From: a virus
Length of the DNA stretch: 23,395 nucleotides
IMG/VR virus record: IMGVR_UViG_3300001351_000055
Coordinates: 1-23,395 of that record
Direction: 5' to 3' (one strand)
In this document: positions 3,007-22,993 of the stretch, piece after piece
Position numbering within the stretch: the first letter of the stretch is position 1
Layout: every line of letters starts with the position of its first letter
Notes under the pieces: generated by a model
Database searches by the model: none
What the model was told of the DNA's origin: nothing
Seen by the model: only the letters and a program-made list of their open reading frames with translations
Translations under genes and position numbers: made by a program

Positions 3007-3016
3007 ATATTTATAA
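3007..3016 (+). promoter_or_regulatory. Putative late promoter motif ATATTTATAA
   Basis: An exact copy of the recurrent ten-base motif, preceded by C and followed by an A-rich run, 22 bases before the ATG at 3039. It lies in a 33-base intergenic gap. Confidence 0.5.
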
Positions 3017-3038: not shown

Positions 3039-3776
3039 ATGAAAAAATCTGAATTAACAGCCTTTATTAAGGAAGAAATTAAATCATCACTAACAAGTGA
3101 AGATACTCAACAAGATATTAAGGATACAGAAGAGCTAACTAAAGTAGTAGCTGATTTAGCTAAAGCAAAAGAAGAAGCAGGTTTATCAGAAGAAAATATA
3201 GGTTTAGCTGATATTGAAGAAATGGGGTATGAAGCTGGAGAAAGAGCATTTGAAGAAATTAAAGGTAAATTCCAAAATCAACCAGACCATCAAGCATATA
3301 AAAAAGGATTTTTTCAAGGATATATAGATCAGGCAGATGCTTATGGTTTAAATGAAGCCGAAGATAAAGGTGGTAATTTTGCTGAATTAAAAAAATACCA
3401 AAAAATGCTTGATGATGCTGCTAAGTTTTTTAGAGAAAAAGCTGATGAATATGGTGTAGACGTTAAAACTTTTGGTGCATTTAATCAAGGAATTAATGAT
3501 TTAGTAGATTTTGTTTTTAAAGCTAACAATAAAAGATCAGGTGGTAAAATAGACGAAAATGAAGATAAAGAACCATCTAAAGCAGATCTTAAAAAAACAA
3601 AAGGTTTAGCTAAAGCAAAAGAAGAACTTGTATTATTAACTCGTGAAATGAAATCATTAGCTAGAGAATATTCAAAAGCTGAAGGTGAAGATAAAGAAAA
3701 ACTAGTTAAAACTTTAAAAGCAAAAACCAAATTAAAAAAAGAATTAGAAAGTATTCTAGATAATAAAAAGATATAA
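3039..3776 (+). CDS. Charged helical protein with capsid-targeting-like N-terminus
   Basis: This 245-residue protein of unknown function is very rich in Lys and Glu. The N-terminus MKKSELTAFIKEEIKSSL is an amphipathic helix containing I-K-E, comparable with T4 capsid targeting sequences (a helix ending in F-I-A-E that gp21 removes). The middle (around residues 60-115) has aromatic-glycine segments such as KKGFFQGYIDQADAYG. The C-terminal part (about 175-245) is a probable coiled coil. It has its own putative late promoter at 3007-3016, and its stop overlaps the ATG of the next gene by one base. A head-internal or core protein is plausible; an unrelated late protein is equally possible. Confidence 0.7.
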   Translation: MKKSELTAFIKEEIKSSLTSEDTQQDIKDTEELTKVVADLAKAKEEAGLSEENIGLADIEEMGYEAGERAFEEIKGKFQNQPDHQAYKKGFFQGYIDQADAYGLNEAEDKGGNFAELKKYQKMLDDAAKFFREKADEYGVDVKTFGAFNQGINDLVDFVFKANNKRSGGKIDENEDKEPSKADLKKTKGLAKAKEELVLLTREMKSLAREYSKAEGEDKEKLVKTLKAKTKLKKELESILDNKKI

Positions 3777-4135
3777 TGTCATCTAAAGAAAGGTTTTTAT
3801 ATGTGGCCTTAACTTTTTTAAGTGTTTATTACTTATTTAATATGTACTTATCAAGCGAGGAAAAATATGTTGATGAATATAATGTTAAAATAAAAGCATT
3901 AGAACAAAAAGTTGATTCATTACACCACATAAATGACGACCTAACTTTTAAAATTGATACATTAAATATACAAATAGTCAAATTAGACCAACAAATAGGC
4001 TCTAAAGATGATAAGATAAACAGCTTAAAATATGAAATCAATAAAAAAGTGGATGCTGTTGATAGTTTTAATGATGATGAGCTTGAAAAGTTTTTCACAG
4101 AACGTTACAGACAGTACAAAGATTCAATTAACTAA
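3776..4135 (+). CDS. Probable inner-membrane coiled-coil protein, spanin-like
   Basis: This 119-residue protein has a single N-terminal membrane segment (about residues 6-25, RFLYVALTFLSVYYLFNMYL), followed by a long coiled coil (about 38-90) and a polar C-terminus, DDELEKFFTERYRQYK. This is the architecture of an inner-membrane spanin subunit (Rz-like): anchored at the N-terminus with the coiled coil in the periplasm. It starts on the last base of the preceding stop (TAATG). Its last 104 bases are also read in another frame as the signal peptide of the next gene, like the nested Rz/Rz1 genes. The function is inferred from architecture only; no lysozyme or holin is seen nearby. Confidence 0.65.
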   Translation: MSSKERFLYVALTFLSVYYLFNMYLSSEEKYVDEYNVKIKALEQKVDSLHHINDDLTFKIDTLNIQIVKLDQQIGSKDDKINSLKYEINKKVDAVDSFNDDELEKFFTERYRQYKDSIN

Positions 4136-4445
4136 ACCTATTGTTAAGTTAGTAATTAAGGATCTTATAAAAGGAGATGGTGCTAAACAAGAATTAGTAC
4201 TTTTTGGTAGTAAAATCAAACTTCTAGAACAAAAGGTTTTTTTAAAAGATAGTGTTATTTTAAATTTGAATTCTAAAATCTACAATTTTAATTCTATATT
4301 AAATACTAAAGATAATCAATTATCTTTATCCCAAGAATTATCTAAAAAATTACAAAACGATCTTAAAAAACAAAAACTTAAGAATAAACTTACAGTAGGG
4401 GCAGGAGTAGTTGCCATAATAGTCACAGCACTTTTAGTAAAATAG
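4032..4445 (+). CDS. Secreted coiled-coil protein with C-terminal membrane segment, spanin-like partner
   Basis: This 137-residue protein starts inside the previous gene in a different frame. Residues 1-22 form a signal peptide: positive KSIKK, a hydrophobic core WMLLIVLMMM, and the end SLKSFSQ, a typical Bacteroidetes signal-peptidase I region. There is no cysteine for a lipobox. The middle (about 45-112) is a coiled coil, and residues about 118-136 (KLTVGAGVVAIIVTALLVK) form a C-terminal membrane helix. It is thus periplasmic with a C-terminal anchor, unlike a classical Rz1 lipoprotein. The start is chosen because it gives an intact signal peptide. The gene ends one base before terL. A spanin-like role in host lysis is the best guess. 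Confidence 0.65.
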   Translation: MKSIKKWMLLIVLMMMSLKSFSQNVTDSTKIQLTKPIVKLVIKDLIKGDGAKQELVLFGSKIKLLEQKVFLKDSVILNLNSKIYNFNSILNTKDNQLSLSQELSKKLQNDLKKQKLKNKLTVGAGVVAIIVTALLVK

Positions 4446-16271: not shown

Positions 16272-16802
16272 ATGGCAATGTTTGGTCGCTCACGAGATGT
16301 GAGTTTAATACGAGGGTTAAATAGAGAGTTATTACATGACATTGTAACTCAACAAGCCGCTATCTATAAATTTAAATTAGAAGAAACTGGTGTAAGTATT
16401 TATGGGGAAGCAGCCGGTGAAAAATATTATGATGGTCCCTTCTTATTTAATTGTTTAATAAATAGACAAGACCAAGCATATACTGAAGGAGATGAAGGAG
16501 TTGGGTTTAATCAAGGGATTGAATTTTCATTTTTTAGAGATGATTTAGTAGATGCCAATGTGGTTCCTGAAATAGGAGATATTATACTATACCAAAAAAG
16601 TTATTATGGTGTAGATTCTACAGTATCTAACCAATATTTTGTAGGTAAAAACCCAGATTACCCAAATAATAATTCAGATGGTACTGCGAATCCACTAAAC
16701 CCAGGTTTAGAAGATTTTGGAGTTAGCTTATCTATTATAATTAAAACATATAAAATTCCTGACGATAAAGTAGCAATTTCACCTTATAAAGAAAGATTTT
16801 AA
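16272..16802 (+). CDS. Probable neck protein, gp14-like
   Basis: This 176-residue protein starts MAMFGRSRDVSLIRGLNREL. It then has KLEETGVSIYGEAAGEKYY (35-53), followed by the beta segments FSFFRDDLVDANVVPEIGDIIL (split: 86-95 and 96-107) and YYGVDSTVSNQYFVGK (111-126). The arrangement of a GED/GEA-type segment, then P-x-x-G-D-I-I-x-Y and Y-x-x-x-x-V-x-x-x-x-Q-x-x-x-G-K, resembles T4-like gp14 neck proteins that bridge gp13 and the tail. It is shorter than T4 gp14 (256 residues). Gene order between gp13-like and gp15-like supports the assignment. A generic head-tail connector is the alternative. It ends overlapping the next ATG by one base. Confidence 0.55.
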   Translation: MAMFGRSRDVSLIRGLNRELLHDIVTQQAAIYKFKLEETGVSIYGEAAGEKYYDGPFLFNCLINRQDQAYTEGDEGVGFNQGIEFSFFRDDLVDANVVPEIGDIILYQKSYYGVDSTVSNQYFVGKNPDYPNNNSDGTANPLNPGLEDFGVSLSIIIKTYKIPDDKVAISPYKERF

Positions 16803-17680
16803 TGGCTGATTTTAAACCATACCCTAAAAAACAAGTAGAAATTAGTAAAGGATTGCAAACCGCATTTGATACTGAAAGGGGAAATCCCAATAAAGATGTT
16901 AACCCCAATAAATCTCAAACTGGAATTGAATTTAATAGATCAACTAAGATCAGCCAAAAAGGAGATACTTCAAAAACATTTTCAGTAGGACTTAAAGATA
17001 TTGATGAGGCTGTATTTTACTATTTTAATAATGTAATTCAACCCTTTGTATATCAAAATGGAGAAAGAAGAACAGTCCCTATAATATATGGTAATCCTGA
17101 AAGATGGAAATCATATCAAAGAGATGGGTATTATAGAGATAAAGGAGGATCAGTAATGCTTCCAATTATAATAATAAAAAGAGATTCTATAGAAAAAGAT
17201 AGAAGTACTTACAATAAACTAGACTCTAATTCACCCAACTTATATGGAACTTTCCAACAGGGTTTCAATGCCAAAAACTCATATAATAACTTTAACTTAT
17301 TAAATAATAGAACCCCTACTAAACAATTTAACACCATAGTAGTTCCTGATTACCTTAATGTAACTTATAGTTGTATTGTTCAAACTTACTACATGGAACA
17401 ATTAAATAATATAATTGAGGCCGTAGAATATGCTTCTGATTCATATTGGGGTGATCCGGAAAGGTTTAAATTTAATACTAGGGTAAATTCTTTTACTACT
17501 GCTGCTGAAATGACAGCTGGTCAAGATAGACTAGTTAAAAGTACTTTTGATATTAACTTAAGGGGTTATATCATCCCGGACGTAATGCAGAAAGATTTAA
17601 ATTCCATTAAAAAACTGAATTCAAGATCCAAAATAAACATTACTACTGAAACTACTGGAAACATTAATGAAATTCCGTGA
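16802..17680 (+). CDS. Probable tail-completion/sheath-stabiliser protein, gp15-like
   Basis: This 292-residue protein probably caps the tail and joins it to the neck. The pattern VPIIYGNPERWK (92-103), LPIIIIKRDSI (120-130) and IVVPDYLNVTYSCIVQTYYMEQ (split around residues 179-200) followed by a helix and RGYIIPD (about 254-260) parallels T4 gp15: V-P-I-T-Y-A-S-K-E-H-F, P-R-I-N-L-H, then P-x-x-x-x-Y-E-L-x-x-x-T-R-Y and W-x-x-x-x-E-V-N-G-W-x-Y-P. Length is close to T4 gp15 (272). It overlaps the preceding gene by one base and precedes the glycosyltransferase genes by 31 bases. The C-terminal tail is polar and probably disordered. Confidence 0.65.
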   Translation: MADFKPYPKKQVEISKGLQTAFDTERGNPNKDVNPNKSQTGIEFNRSTKISQKGDTSKTFSVGLKDIDEAVFYYFNNVIQPFVYQNGERRTVPIIYGNPERWKSYQRDGYYRDKGGSVMLPIIIIKRDSIEKDRSTYNKLDSNSPNLYGTFQQGFNAKNSYNNFNLLNNRTPTKQFNTIVVPDYLNVTYSCIVQTYYMEQLNNIIEAVEYASDSYWGDPERFKFNTRVNSFTTAAEMTAGQDRLVKSTFDINLRGYIIPDVMQKDLNSIKKLNSRSKINITTETTGNINEIP

Positions 17681-17711: not shown

Positions 17712-18794
17712 ATGAAAGTTTTATTTATAGCACCACATTTAAGTACGGGTGGAATGCCCGCATTCTTATTAAAACGTATACAAGCTCTACAACAATATAA
17801 CGACAATATTGAAATATTTGTTGTAGAATGGAAAATGTATAGTCCTACATTTGTGGTACAACGCAACCAAATCCAAGAACTATTGGGTGACAACTTTATC
17901 CCTCTTCATGGAAATAAAGAATTTCAACAAAATATTATAAAAATATGTTATGATAATAACATAGACGTAGTCCATATAGAAGAAATACCTGAAGGATTTG
18001 ATGGTCATAACCCGTTTCCATTTGAAATACAAGAACAACTATATGACTCCTCCCATCCTTGGGTCGTAGTAGAAACATGCCATAACATTTACTTTAATCC
18101 TAACGAACAAAAGAAATTAGAACCTAATGGGTATGCTTTTGTAACACCTCACCATTTAGAAAATACATTTAAAGATACAAAGGCATCAAAATCATTAATC
18201 CCATTCCCAATAGACCCTAGCATCCAATCAGACAAAACTCGAGAAGAAATTTTAGACGAAATAGGATATAGACATAAGGGAGAATTTCATATTCTTAATT
18301 TAGGACTATGGACCCCAGGGAAAAATCAAGCTTATGCTCTTAATATAGCTAAAAATTTATATGAAAAATATGGGTTTACTTACATATTTCATTTTGTAGG
18401 TAATCAAGCCCCCAATTTTAAAGAATATTGGGGTCCCTTAATGGAAGATATCTCACCAAATGTTTTAATTTGGGGTGAAAGGAGTGATACCGCAGAATAT
18501 TTAAAACTAGCAGATTTAATGTTATTTACTTCTACGTGGGAGTGTAATCCCATTGTATTAAAAGAAGCTATTGCAAATAATCTTAAAATCATGGCTAATA
18601 ATTTGGACCATTACGGAGATGAATATAAACCATTCATTACAGACATAACTGGAAACGATATTACTGATGTTAATAACTTAATTGATATCATCCATTCACC
18701 CATTAAATATTTAGATTACGACATAGGAAATAATATGCAAAAATTTGCTAAAAACCATATTGAATTTTACACCTCTTTACTAAATGAAAAATAA
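17712..18794 (+). CDS. GT4-like glycosyltransferase
   Basis: This 360-residue GT-B fold enzyme transfers a sugar from an activated nucleotide donor to an unknown acceptor. The N-terminal domain opens with MKVLFIAPHLSTGGMPAFLL, the glycine-rich loop typical of GT4 enzymes. The C-terminal domain has LGLWTPGKNQ (197-206, K204 in the donor phosphate site) and FTSTWECNPIVLKEA (272-286), a clear E-x7-E motif (E277 and E285). No membrane segment is visible, so it is cytoplasmic. Its final 11 bases overlap the next glycosyltransferase gene, which argues for co-translation and a shared pathway. It lies between neck and tail genes, so it is probably expressed late. Confidence 0.85.
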   Translation: MKVLFIAPHLSTGGMPAFLLKRIQALQQYNDNIEIFVVEWKMYSPTFVVQRNQIQELLGDNFIPLHGNKEFQQNIIKICYDNNIDVVHIEEIPEGFDGHNPFPFEIQEQLYDSSHPWVVVETCHNIYFNPNEQKKLEPNGYAFVTPHHLENTFKDTKASKSLIPFPIDPSIQSDKTREEILDEIGYRHKGEFHILNLGLWTPGKNQAYALNIAKNLYEKYGFTYIFHFVGNQAPNFKEYWGPLMEDISPNVLIWGERSDTAEYLKLADLMLFTSTWECNPIVLKEAIANNLKIMANNLDHYGDEYKPFITDITGNDITDVNNLIDIIHSPIKYLDYDIGNNMQKFAKNHIEFYTSLLNEK

Positions 18795-19872
18795 AATATT
18801 AATTTCTTTTCACTATGAACCTAAAGTAGAAATTAAGGGGGATATTGATAAAGAATATTTTGTAGAATTTATTAATGGTTACACTAATAAAGTAATCCAC
18901 TCCACCACTATTAGAAATAATATGTGGGCTAAATGTAATAAAAAATGGCATATTCCGTGGACTATTAAGATAAATGGTAATATCCACCATACTTGGGATT
19001 TGGAAAAACAAAATGTTAGAATTACATTAGATTCAAAATCTGTAGGAGATACATTAGCCTGGGCACCCCAAGCTGTTGAATTTGCTAAAAAATATAAATG
19101 TAAAGTAACTTTATCTACATTCCATAACTCATGGTTTAAAAATTTACCAATATATAACGATATTAACTTTATAGAACCTGGAGAAAATGTAGAATGTTAT
19201 GCCTCGTATAAATTGGGGTGGTATATAACTAATGATAAATGGGATGAAGGTGAATATCATCCAACATCACCTAATACTATACCACTTATTCAGGCGGCTA
19301 CTGATATATTGGATTTACCTTATAAAGAAATAAACCATGGTGTTAATTTCAAACCTGGTAAACGTCCTATAAAAGAAAAATATATTTGCATAGGTCCACG
19401 TTCAACTGCGGGGTTAAAAGAATGGCCTTATTATTATTGGGAACACTTAGCTAAAATGTTAAATGACATAGGTTATAAAGTAGTTAATATATCTTATGAG
19501 GGGTTTAACCATGCTAATATAATAAATAAGGAAAAATTAAATTGGCAAGATACTTATAACCATCTCCACCATGCTGAATATTTTATAGGATTAGGATCAG
19601 GTTTATCTTGGTTCAATTGGTCCATGAATAAACCAACATTAATGGTAAATAATTTTATTCCATATGGTTATGAGTTTACAAAGGGGTTAACTAAAGTAGA
19701 AGACTATTCAGTATGTAATAATTGTTGGGTAGATAAAAGAGTCCAATTTAATAAAGGAAAATGGGATTGGTGTCCAAGACATCAAGGCACTAATTCTGAA
19801 CATATATGTCATAAAAATATTAAACCTGAAAAAGTTTATGAAGTATTATTAAAACTATTAAAATTTAAATAA
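18784..19872 (+). CDS. TibC/BAHTCr-like protein O-glycosyltransferase
   Basis: This 362-residue protein closely resembles the autotransporter O-heptosyltransferase family (GT9-related, TibC/BAHTCr). The N-terminal beta domain, with residues 11-60 including FVEFIN and NNMWAK, fits the family. Residues 82-95, LDSKSVGDTLAWAP, contain D89 at the place of the GT9 general base. CKVTLSTFHNSWF (106-118) and YKLGWY (142-147), then IGLGSGLSWFNW (268-279), are further family features. The Cys cluster C311-x2-C314-x15-C330-x11-C342 with WCPR is the hallmark iron site; the spacing of the first three Cys matches TibC as I recall it. Known members add heptose to Ser of autotransporter adhesins. The donor and target here are unknown. 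It overlaps the GT4-like gene by 11 bases. Confidence 0.85.
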   Translation: MKNKILISFHYEPKVEIKGDIDKEYFVEFINGYTNKVIHSTTIRNNMWAKCNKKWHIPWTIKINGNIHHTWDLEKQNVRITLDSKSVGDTLAWAPQAVEFAKKYKCKVTLSTFHNSWFKNLPIYNDINFIEPGENVECYASYKLGWYITNDKWDEGEYHPTSPNTIPLIQAATDILDLPYKEINHGVNFKPGKRPIKEKYICIGPRSTAGLKEWPYYYWEHLAKMLNDIGYKVVNISYEGFNHANIINKEKLNWQDTYNHLHHAEYFIGLGSGLSWFNWSMNKPTLMVNNFIPYGYEFTKGLTKVEDYSVCNNCWVDKRVQFNKGKWDWCPRHQGTNSEHICHKNIKPEKVYEVLLKLLKFK

Positions 19873-19906: not shown

Positions 19907-20158
19907 ATGAAGTTATCTAAAGAAGAATTACAATCAATTAATGATTTACAGTTACAAAGCGATCAAATTAAATTTGCTTTTGGAGAGTTAAAAATCCAAG
20001 AATTAAATTTATTTGAACAACTTAAAAGTGTAGGTGTGCAACAAAACGAATTAGGGGTAGTCCTTACTGAAAAATATGGAAATGGCCGAATTGACTTATC
20101 AACTGGGGAAGTTACACCTCTTGATGAAGAAAATACCACAACTCCAGAAACACCTTAA
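19907..20158 (+). CDS. Small coiled-coil protein before the tail sheath gene
   Basis: This 83-residue protein starts with a two-part amphipathic helix (about residues 3-50, rich in Gln/Leu/Glu) and then the conserved-looking turn EKYGNGRIDLSTGEVTP (55-71), followed by a disordered Thr/Glu tail. I have an impression that such K-Y-G-x-G-x-I-D-L-x-T-G-E proteins are frequent in marine phages but I know no function. It has its own late-promoter-like motif and sits just before the tail sheath gene, so a tail-assembly role is possible. Confidence 0.65.
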   Translation: MKLSKEELQSINDLQLQSDQIKFAFGELKIQELNLFEQLKSVGVQQNELGVVLTEKYGNGRIDLSTGEVTPLDEENTTTPETP

Positions 20159-20212: not shown

Positions 20213-22462
20213 ATGGCAGAAACATTAATATCACCTGGTGTATTGGCTCGCGAAAATGATCAATCTTTTATTCAAGGTCAACCAGTAGAAGCAGGAGCGG
20301 CTGTAGTAGGACCAGCGGCTAAAGGTCCTGTTGGCATTCCAACATTAGTAACTTCATTTAGTGAGTACAGAGCAATTTTTGGTGGAGCTATTACTAGTGG
20401 ATCATCAGAATACACTTACTTAACATCAATCTCAGCAAATAATTATTTTTCTCAAGGAGGAAAGTCATTATTAGTAACTAGAGTAGCAAAAGGTACATTT
20501 ACCGATGCTACATCTACGGATTTATATAATTCTGTAGAAACTGGGGATTTAGCATTAAAAACTTTATCTGTTACAGGTGGTGTAGGAGGAGTAGCTTCAA
20601 CTTATAGTAATGTTCCTTTAACAGCATCAAATGGTACTGAAGGTATTATTACTATTGTAAAAGGTTTAGCAGCAGGTAAATTAGACACCTCAGCAGATGC
20701 TTTGTTAAGTTCAATTTCACAACAATCTACAGGAGTAGCAGCTTCTACTTACGCAAGTGTTGCAACAACAACAAATGGCGCAGGTTCAGGAGCAGTATTA
20801 ACTTTAGTAGCTGATGGAACTGTTTCTTCAGTTACAGTAACGACACAAGGAAGTGGATATGCTGTTGGAGATGAGTTAGTTGTAGCAGGAAGTGCTATTG
20901 GATCATCATCAGATATTAAATTTATATTAGTAGCAGATGATATAGTAGTAGAAGTAGAAAGTGCAACTATTACTACAGCAGGAAGTGGATATGTTGTAGG
21001 AGAAACAATTTCAGTAGGATCAGCGGCGTTAGGAGGAGGAACAGATGTTTCTTATACTTTAACTGCTGGAGATATTGTAAATCAAGTTCCTTTTGTATTA
21101 TCTACTATATCTGAAGGAGTTATAATGAATAGTTCAGGTTCAGAAGTAGGAAATGGCGCTTTATCTTTAGGTACACAAGACAACATTCGATGGGAAATTG
21201 TTTCATCAAACGTAAATTCTGGTACATTTAGCTTATTAGTTCGTAGTGGTAATGATACTAACCGAAATAAATCAATTTTAGAAACTTGGACAAACTTATC
21301 ATTAGATCCAAAAGCACCTAATTATTTAGAAAAAGTAATTGGTAACACAAGCTATTCTATAGTAGTTGATGGTGTTGATTCTTACGTACAATCACAAGGA
21401 GAATATATTAATAAAAGTAAATACTTAAGAGTATCTGCAGTAACAGCAAAAACACCAGATTATTTCGATAATGCTGGAAATGCAAAATCAGCATATACTT
21501 CAAGCTTACCATTTGTAGGTTCAGGTTCATTTAGTGGAGCCGTAGGTACATTATTTGGTGCTGGAGCTAAATTTTATGATCAAATCACAGCAGCTGATAT
21601 CCAAGGATTAAGCCCTAGTGATTATACATCATCAATCACTTTATTAAATAATAAAGATGATTATAAATTTAATTTACTTACAGCCCCAGGATTAAATTCA
21701 TCTGATCACTCAACACCAGTAAATTTATTGGTTACAACAGCAGAAGCACGTCAAGATTGCATCGCTGTAGTAGACCTAGATGGGTATGGGACAGGAATTA
21801 GTACTGTAATTAATAACGCAGCTTCGTTTGATAGTTCATATGCAGCTACATATTTCCCTTGGTTACAAACATTAGATCCAAATACGGGACAAGCAGTATT
21901 CGTACCAGCTTCAACATTGATACCTGGTGTATATGCTTTCACAGATGCTTCAAGTGATGCATGGTTTGCACCTGCAGGTTTAACAAGAGGTGCTCTTGGA
22001 AATGTAACTAAAGCAGAAAGAAAATTAACAACAACAAACAGAGATTCACTATATGAAGCTAATGTAAATCCAATTGCAACATTCCCAGGAAATGGAGTTG
22101 TAGTATTTGGACAAAAAACATTACAGAAACGAGCTAGCGCATTAGATCGTGTGAATGTACGTAGATTATTGATTGCTCTAAAAGGCTATATATCTCAGGT
22201 ATCTGACAACTTAGTATTTGAACAAAACACGATTGCTACAAGAAATACTTTCTTAGCACAAGTAAACCCATACTTAGAATCAGTACAACAAAGACAAGGA
22301 TTGTATGCATTCAAAGTAGTAATGGATGATACTAATAACACTCCAGATGTAATCGATAGAAACCAACTAGTAGGTCAAATCTATTTACAACCAACTAGAA
22401 CAGCAGAATTTATTATGTTAGATTTTAATGTTTTACCAACAGGAGCAGTTTTTCCGGAATAA
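20213..22462 (+). CDS. 18: Tail sheath protein, gp18-like
   Basis: This 749-residue protein polymerises around the tail tube and contracts to drive it through the host envelope. The N-terminus ETLISPGVLARENDQS (3-18), then GPAAKGPVGIPTLVTSFSEY (33-52) and F-G-G, and a C-terminal domain with RRLLIALKGYISQVSDNLVF and DVIDRNQLVGQIYLQPTRTA are sheath signatures. Residues about 110-310 form an inserted, Gly/Ser/Val-rich beta region with an internal duplication: TTQGSGYAVGD at 210 and TTAGSGYVVGE at 254, a 44-residue period. It is longer than T4 gp18 (659) because of this insertion. The tail tube gene follows. Confidence 0.93.
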   Translation: MAETLISPGVLARENDQSFIQGQPVEAGAAVVGPAAKGPVGIPTLVTSFSEYRAIFGGAITSGSSEYTYLTSISANNYFSQGGKSLLVTRVAKGTFTDATSTDLYNSVETGDLALKTLSVTGGVGGVASTYSNVPLTASNGTEGIITIVKGLAAGKLDTSADALLSSISQQSTGVAASTYASVATTTNGAGSGAVLTLVADGTVSSVTVTTQGSGYAVGDELVVAGSAIGSSSDIKFILVADDIVVEVESATITTAGSGYVVGETISVGSAALGGGTDVSYTLTAGDIVNQVPFVLSTISEGVIMNSSGSEVGNGALSLGTQDNIRWEIVSSNVNSGTFSLLVRSGNDTNRNKSILETWTNLSLDPKAPNYLEKVIGNTSYSIVVDGVDSYVQSQGEYINKSKYLRVSAVTAKTPDYFDNAGNAKSAYTSSLPFVGSGSFSGAVGTLFGAGAKFYDQITAADIQGLSPSDYTSSITLLNNKDDYKFNLLTAPGLNSSDHSTPVNLLVTTAEARQDCIAVVDLDGYGTGISTVINNAASFDSSYAATYFPWLQTLDPNTGQAVFVPASTLIPGVYAFTDASSDAWFAPAGLTRGALGNVTKAERKLTTTNRDSLYEANVNPIATFPGNGVVVFGQKTLQKRASALDRVNVRRLLIALKGYISQVSDNLVFEQNTIATRNTFLAQVNPYLESVQQRQGLYAFKVVMDDTNNTPDVIDRNQLVGQIYLQPTRTAEFIMLDFNVLPTGAVFPE

Positions 22463-22504: not shown

Positions 22505-22993
22505 ATGGCAGTATTAGATCCTAACGAAATATTTTATACGGCATTTGAGCCGAAACAAAAGAACAGATTCATCATGTATATTGATGGTTTCCCTTCATAC
22601 CTTATGAAAGGTGTAGGAGCTGTAACTGTATCACAAGGAACAGTACCTTTAAATCACATTAACGTTCAACGTTTTGTGAAAGGTAAAACAACTTGGGGTA
22701 CTATTCAATTTACATTATTTGATCCAATCACTCCATCTGGTGCACAATCAGTAATGGAATGGGTTAGATTACATCACGAATCAGTAACAGGTAGAGATGG
22801 GTATAGTGATTTCTATAAAAAAGATTTAACTATTAACGTATTAGGACCTGTAGGTGATATCGTATCTGAATGGATTATCAAGGGAGCATTAATTACAGAA
22901 GCTTCATTTGGAGATTACAACTGGGATACTGAAAATGCTGCTCAAGAACTTACAATGACAGTACAACCTGATTATTGTGTATTAAATTTCTAA
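22505..22993 (+). CDS. 19: Tail tube protein, gp19-like
   Basis: This 162-residue protein stacks as hexamers to make the inner tail tube through which DNA passes. Length matches T4 gp19 (163). It has the family layout: N-terminal F-E-P-K-x-x-N-R-F-I-M-Y-I-D-G (residues 14-28), VQRFVKGKTTWGTIQFTLFD (54-73), MEWVRLHHESVTGRDGYSDF (84-103) and KKDLTINVLGPVGDIVSEW, ending with beta strands TMTVQPDYCVLNF. It follows the sheath gene as in T4 and has its own promoter-like motif and a strong terminator downstream, which suits a very abundant protein. Confidence 0.93.
   Translation: MAVLDPNEIFYTAFEPKQKNRFIMYIDGFPSYLMKGVGAVTVSQGTVPLNHINVQRFVKGKTTWGTIQFTLFDPITPSGAQSVMEWVRLHHESVTGRDGYSDFYKKDLTINVLGPVGDIVSEWIIKGALITEASFGDYNWDTENAAQELTMTVQPDYCVLNF

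Follow-up and report, generated by a model that had tools for sequence, protein, structure and literature searches.

To our knowledge, glycosylation of virion proteins is known in few phages, and the enzymes have seldom been paired with their acceptors. In bacteria, serine-rich repeat and collagen-like surface proteins have long Ser/Thr/Gly repeats and are substrates of hyper-O-glycosylation; these are, however, cell-surface adhesins or spore proteins, and they are served by other glycosyltransferase families. The closest characterised enzyme is TibC of enterotoxigenic E. coli (PDB 4rap, 4rb4). D110 has been proposed as its catalytic base, T226 and K230 bind the beta-phosphate, W305 touches the heptose O4, P300 sets stereoselectivity, R286 contacts the adenine and is described as highly conserved in BAHTs, and C339, C342, C358 and C370 bind ferric iron (PMC4358343). 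AAH, which falls under the same TIGR04414 model, is a soluble enzyme whose targets are repetitive surface proteins (PMC4358343 and general knowledge of the family), and its known substrates are autotransporters.

For phages, glycosyltransferases of the mycobacteriophages Che8 and Rita are thought to modify the phages' own structural proteins (Freeman et al., 2023, cited in PMC11256854). There the glycans are reported on major capsid proteins, and the accessible part of that article describes neither a TibC-type enzyme nor a link to repeat fibres. In T4-like pelagimyophages, a host recognition cluster places glycosyltransferases amid tail-fibre genes, with rfaE among the LPS-related genes; the variable island between VrlC and gp14 was interpreted as serving LPS modification, and neither a TibC-type enzyme nor a Ser/Thr-repeat substrate was proposed (PMC7029224). 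Databases already apply automatic TibC names to phage proteins. TibC fold or sequence is found in A0A6J5SVC1 ("Glycosyltransferase Aah/TibC", uncultured Caudovirales phage), A0A7S9XE01 (Virus NIOZ-UU157) and WWT39291 of the Microcystis phage Mel-JY01, which are automatically annotated single records, usually of longer proteins with a GT1/GT4 domain. In our literature searches we came across no paper that deals with TibC homologues of phages, their context or their substrate, and no description of how broad the phage family is, of its link with Ser/Thr-repeat fibres or of its donor genes.

The locus analysed here lies on a 23,395-nucleotide stretch of viral DNA (IMG/VR record IMGVR_UViG_3300001351_000055, positions 1 to 23,395; hereafter the window). 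Its enzyme resembles TibC in fold over the whole length, in the catalytic Asp, the Thr/Lys pair and the Trp, and in the spacing of four cysteines. It differs in sequence (about 25% identity), in having Thr for R286 and Gly for P300, and in its setting, a phage late operon where the gene is coupled to a GT4 gene and no autotransporter is near.

The TibC-type enzyme and its gene neighbourhood

An earlier note, made from the DNA letters alone, had proposed a TibC-like glycosyltransferase encoded among the virion genes of a T4-like phage. The family profile, the predicted fold, the conserved residues and the gene order all bear this out. The reading frame is free of stops across 362 codons, and the opposite strand is crowded with them. 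TIGR04414 (NCBIfam, autotransporter strand-loop-strand O-heptosyltransferase) matches residues 24-355 over model positions 28-371 of 374 with an E-value of 6.1e-57; the score of 193.3 bits falls 6.7 bits short of the curated cut-off of 200 bits, which relatives on other phage contigs exceed (L172, 211.8 bits; L098, 317.8 bits). PF01075 also matches, above its gathering cut-off, and solved TibC (4rb4/4rap) is the best sequence match in the PDB (phmmer, residues 47-358, E 5.6e-29). An AlphaFold2 model built on a 26-row alignment reached a mean pLDDT of 93.6 and a pTM of 0.90, and Foldseek returned TibC as its top match (TM 0.88, E 1e-31, 378 columns); the overall TibC fold, including the N-terminal beta-barrel and the GT-B core, is present in the model. 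The LPS heptosyltransferases WaaF and WaaC rank after TibC with TM of about 0.5. A GT9 identity of this kind was rejected, since TIGR02193 scored 19.3 bits against a cut-off of 185.3 and TIGR02195 12.3 against 134.6. No PHROGs family includes the enzyme. Judged by sequence and predicted structure, it represents a branch, found in phages, of the BAHT (TibC/AAH) family, whose members are soluble GT-B protein O-glycosyltransferases with an iron finger, and we infer the corresponding activity.

The motifs pointed out earlier are exactly in place: SKSVGDTLAW occupies residues 84-93 and includes D89, and the four cysteines C311, C314, C330 and C342 are accompanied by WCPRH at 329-333. Their spacing of 3, 16 and 12 is that of the TibC iron ligands, so that metal binding is predicted. 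The catalytic Asp and the donor-site Thr, Lys and Trp are likewise kept (D89, T208, K212, W276), and by its conserved residues the enzyme looks intact. The position of TibC R286 is different. Arg was found there in none of 19 phage sequences compared (A1), which have Thr, Ser, Leu, Val, Ala or Ile instead, and it is kept in most, not all, cellular homologues. Because this residue is T257 in the window enzyme, the donor nucleotide is uncertain and ADP should not be assumed.

Table 1. Features of the glycosylation locus and its flanks; positions refer to the window.
Feature	Position	Strand	Basis
gp15-like neck/tail-completion protein, left edge of variable slot	16802..17680	+	conserved position
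GT4-family glycosyltransferase, 360 aa	17712..18794	+	PF13692/PF00534 above cut-off
TibC-type (BAHT-like) glycosyltransferase, 362 aa: N-terminal beta-barrel, GT-B catalytic domain, iron-finger insertion	18784..19872	+	TIGR04414, PDB TibC, AlphaFold2 model
Codon of D89, equivalent of TibC catalytic base D110	19048..19050	+	phmmer alignment; invariant in 26 homologues
T208...K212, equivalents of TibC donor-phosphate-binding T226, K230	19405..19419	+	comparison with TibC
T257 at the place of TibC R286 (adenine contact), not conserved	19552..19554	+	comparison with TibC
G271 (TibC P300, stereoselectivity site) and W276 (TibC W305, heptose O4 contact)	19594..19611	+	comparison with TibC
Predicted iron-finger cysteines C311, C314, C330, C342 with WCPRH	19714..19809	+	TibC-like spacing; invariant in 26 homologues
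83-aa protein, conserved between TibC and sheath	19907..20158	+	position kept in relatives
Tail sheath, gp18-like, 749 aa, Ser/Thr/Gly-rich insertion at about residues 120-290	20213..22462	+	PF04984/PF17482, phrog_23
Tail tube, gp19-like	22505..22993	+	phrog_4542

Terminase, portal, prohead, major capsid, PhoH and neck genes lie 5' of the glycosylation genes, and the 83-aa gene, sheath and tube follow on the 3' side (Table 1). The 23-kb window contains virion genes and no autotransporter. The gp15-like protein matched no PHROG or Pfam family. The GT4 gene overlaps the TibC start by 11 bp, and in other phages GT4 and TibC are joined as one protein (L016, L281-L286, contigs G013-G015 and G018), the GT4 part being of the window's own type in L016 and L281-L286. 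The nearest isolate is Flavobacterium phage immuto (57% by capsid, 53% by sheath), and a Bacteroidota host is therefore likely; immuto itself gave no TibC match.

Relatives are widespread, with at least 590 IMG/VR stretches encoding one (profile scan, confirmed). The order neck, glycosylation genes, 83-aa gene, sheath and tube is conserved: a sheath gene lies 3' of TibC in 69 of the 80 loci examined, 47 of them with just the 83-aa gene between. We distinguished three architectures, namely separate GT4 and TibC genes as in the window, proteins of about 760 aa with an N-terminal GT4-type domain (L172), and proteins of about 1240 aa. In the tree the window protein falls in an 18-row clade (support 100/100) drawn entirely from phage contigs, 17 rows being window or IMG/VR sequences and one coming from L097, a MAG contig with the same sheath and tube genes. 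GT9-like genes occur in the slot of TibC-less phages too.

Several records among the relatives deserve mention. L031, L032 and L033 are close relatives cleanly without GT4 and TibC, the gp15-like gene being followed by the 83-aa gene, and thus represent natural deletions. L097, L098 and L099 are filed in bacterial MAGs and look like phage contigs; sheath and tube genes adjoin TibC in the first two, and L099 has phage-like repeat and GT4-TibC genes. A MAG contig of the archaeon Candidatus Nitrosotalea (L120:8001-9044) encodes a protein resembling TibC, iron-finger cysteines included, close to a short ORF rich in Ser/Gly, and may be viral or contamination. WWT39291 of Mel-JY01 (L019:4750-8430) is annotated "methyltransferase FkbM", which is likely a misannotation: Pfam gives an N-terminal GT4 and a C-terminal TibC domain, and no FkbM match at E 0.01.

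A scan for promoters and terminators near the glycosylation genes returned signals at or below chance. The motif TATTTATA occurs at window positions 3008, 6019, 7953, 15052, 19882, 20179 and 22479, some 13-26 bases 5' of seven late-gene start codons. It precedes the 83-aa gene and the sheath, not GT4 or TibC. Its total count is not above chance and the placement alone is striking; it could be a late promoter or a processing site. Elsewhere in the window, two overlapping small ORFs at 3776-4445 resemble an overlapping spanin pair, one with an N-terminal transmembrane segment and a coiled coil, the other with a signal-like N-terminus and a C-terminal hydrophobic segment. An FAD-dependent oxidoreductase-like protein (852-2159) is encoded beside the packaging genes, as in most relatives that have this region.

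Sugar donor and the GT4 partner

The heptosyl specificity proposed earlier has indirect support: HldE-like genes adjoin TibC in close relatives, whereas the adenine-contacting Arg of TibC is replaced here. Directly 3' of TibC, contig L029 shows successive matches to HldE domain II (E 5e-34), a HAD phosphatase of capsule type (E 3e-4) and HldE domain I (E 1e-31). The HldE-like nucleotidyltransferase, HAD phosphatase and PfkB kinase genes of this contig (L029:4188-5651) lie between TibC and the sheath. L030, L040 and L179 have a like set in the same place, by size and order in all three and also by sequence in L040 and L179; that of L179 includes a WbuC-type cupin. A kinase, a phosphatase and a nucleotidyltransferase carry out the three steps that follow the isomerase in NDP-heptose synthesis, and we regard the set as candidate genes for such a pathway encoded by the phage. 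Their presence next to TibC in these near relatives points to a heptose-type donor. Since all these HldE-like proteins score below the equivalog cut-offs, heptose is likely but not certain. As far as the window shows, its phage would rely on the host for NDP-heptose.

GT4 and TibC would together form a small glycosylation cassette among the late structural genes. TibC would add the first sugar, probably of heptose type and donated by an NDP-heptose, to Ser/Thr residues in a virion protein of repetitive sequence, in the cytoplasm during virion assembly late in infection. GT4 would attach a second sugar, the order of the two transferases being the one we infer.

Candidate acceptors

On balance we lean towards a virion-glycosylation cassette in which TibC and GT4 place a heptose-type sugar on what would most likely be a long Ser/Thr-repeat tail fibre. 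Stalks built of Gly-X-Y units in which X and Y are Ser/Thr would lend themselves to such modification, and one may speculate that the glycans stabilise or hide them. The most complete clusters combine fibre and glycosylation genes, as in the slot of contig L585: gp15 is followed by two (G-S/T-S/T)n repeat fibres, GT25, a GT9-like gene, a joint GT4-like and TibC unit, a PIG-L-domain protein, the 83-aa gene and the sheath. At their C-terminal end the repeat fibres have a chaperone domain, either of S74 type or homologous to it. More generally, giant tail-fibre ORFs with collagen-like (Gly-Ser/Thr-Ser/Thr)n repeats, some with S74-type C-termini, occur at L267:3083-7351 and many other loci, and at least 120 IMG/VR stretches match a DNA pattern of these repeats.

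When only the slot was considered, the repeat was absent from all 39 TibC-positive loci whose slot is visible back to the neck gene. We therefore examined long contigs and also scanned in reverse, starting from the repeat. Among the loci checked in which TibC is not at the sheath, L013-L015, L218, L225, L229, L239, Mel-JY01, LR756501 and G013-G015 have a repeat ORF in the vicinity, with LR756504 as the single exception. Outside the window's near clade, all surveyed TibC-positive contigs contain repeat ORFs (G009, G012-G020, Mel-JY01), and none was found in about 350 kb of TibC-less immuto, G007 and G008. In Mel-JY01, the only named TibC-positive isolate that we came across, the repeat protein is 1016 aa long. 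In the reverse test, TibC was present on 23 of 50 repeat-bearing contigs of at least 20 kb and on none of 33 controls picked by a P-loop pattern (Fisher p 6.5e-7), an association that shared lineage can inflate because the controls were not lineage-matched. The repeat ORF lies no more than about 10 kb from TibC in 12 of 20 cases. The other 27 repeat contigs show no TibC, and many of them are fragments.

The window's own near clade has no repeat fibre in the slot. The GSS repeat was not found in the 20-77 kb of seven contigs of this clade, the N-terminal module of the repeat fibres had no match in window-type contigs, and the longest contig examined of the window's phage (L002, 36.6 kb, incomplete) is without a Ser/Thr fibre. 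Contig G002, whose TibC is 71% identical to that of the window, ends in a protein of at least 408 aa with 64% Ser/Thr and (STTTTFNTSRS)n repeats (L244:16239-17465, corresponding to G002:76239-77465), cut off by the contig end. Four genes of the slot's glycosylation cluster have homologues next to it, with 38-61% identity. Because a Ser/Thr-repeat protein here stands beside slot-cluster homologues elsewhere in the genome, the sequences suggest that the fibre and the extra glycosyltransferases were relocated while GT4-TibC stayed in the slot. A Ser/Thr fibre may likewise be encoded in the genome of the window phage, whose contig is too short to tell.

In 47-69 of 80 loci TibC is followed by the 83-aa gene, the sheath and the tube, and this arrangement extends to the window clade, which has no fibre gene close by. 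It would fit an acceptor among the neighbouring core tail proteins (sheath, tube, the 83-aa or the gp15-like protein), with the glycan shielding or stabilising the tail. Genes inherited together in a variable slot would account for this synteny just as well, and off-sheath TibC genes adjoin Ser/Thr-repeat ORFs (among them L013-L015, L218, L225, L229 and Mel-JY01), so that we consider a core tail acceptor unlikely. The sheath insertion, which had been named as a possible substrate, was rejected as a general acceptor because its presence does not track TibC: L031-L033 have the insertion without TibC, and L056-L058 and L166 have TibC with a short sheath. Nor did we notice a comparable link between capsid protein and TibC. 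The broader proposal, O-glycosylation of a phage structural protein, stays plausible and is favoured by the gene neighbourhood.

Alteration of host surface glycans, on LPS or surface proteins, for example as a block to superinfection, a role suggested for glycosyltransferases of the pelagimyophage host recognition cluster, appears quite unlikely to us. GT9-like, GT25, HldE-like and PseB-like genes found as neighbours are types known from LPS and capsule pathways as well, and O-chain modification is favoured in one published reading of glycosyltransferases in the fibre clusters of T4-like phages (PMC7029224). The characterised members TibC and AAH, however, act on proteins (PMC4358343), and the TibC gene lies amid late virion genes. 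Moreover, its enrichment on contigs with Ser/Thr-repeat fibres would not be predicted by LPS modification. Finally, T4-like phages are known for DNA glucosylation (T4 alpha- and beta-glucosyltransferases) and the GT4 superfamily is broad, but it is very improbable that the pair glycosylates phage DNA or another small acceptor, given an N-terminal barrel and iron finger typical of a protein glycosyltransferase, the lack of a base-modification gene nearby and the location in a late structural block.

Implications for phage fibres

Taking the fibre as the preferred acceptor, we tentatively extend the reading to a widespread hyper-glycosylation of phage fibres, in which TibC-type and GT4 enzymes, sometimes with NDP-heptose genes of the phage's own, would act on (Gly-Ser/Thr-Ser/Thr)n or Ser/Thr-rich stalks, and in which the fibre gene of the window phage would have moved out of the slot. 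This wider picture we hold as a possibility rather than as our expectation. A mechanistically well-characterised protein O-glycosyltransferase fold is now tied to hundreds of environmental phage contigs, and many TibC-positive phage contigs hold an obvious repetitive candidate acceptor. This offers a possible reason why Ser/Thr/Gly-repeat fibres and "LPS-type" glycosylation genes travel together in phage genomes. If true, the glycan would stiffen or protect the fibre stalk and mask it from the host or the environment.
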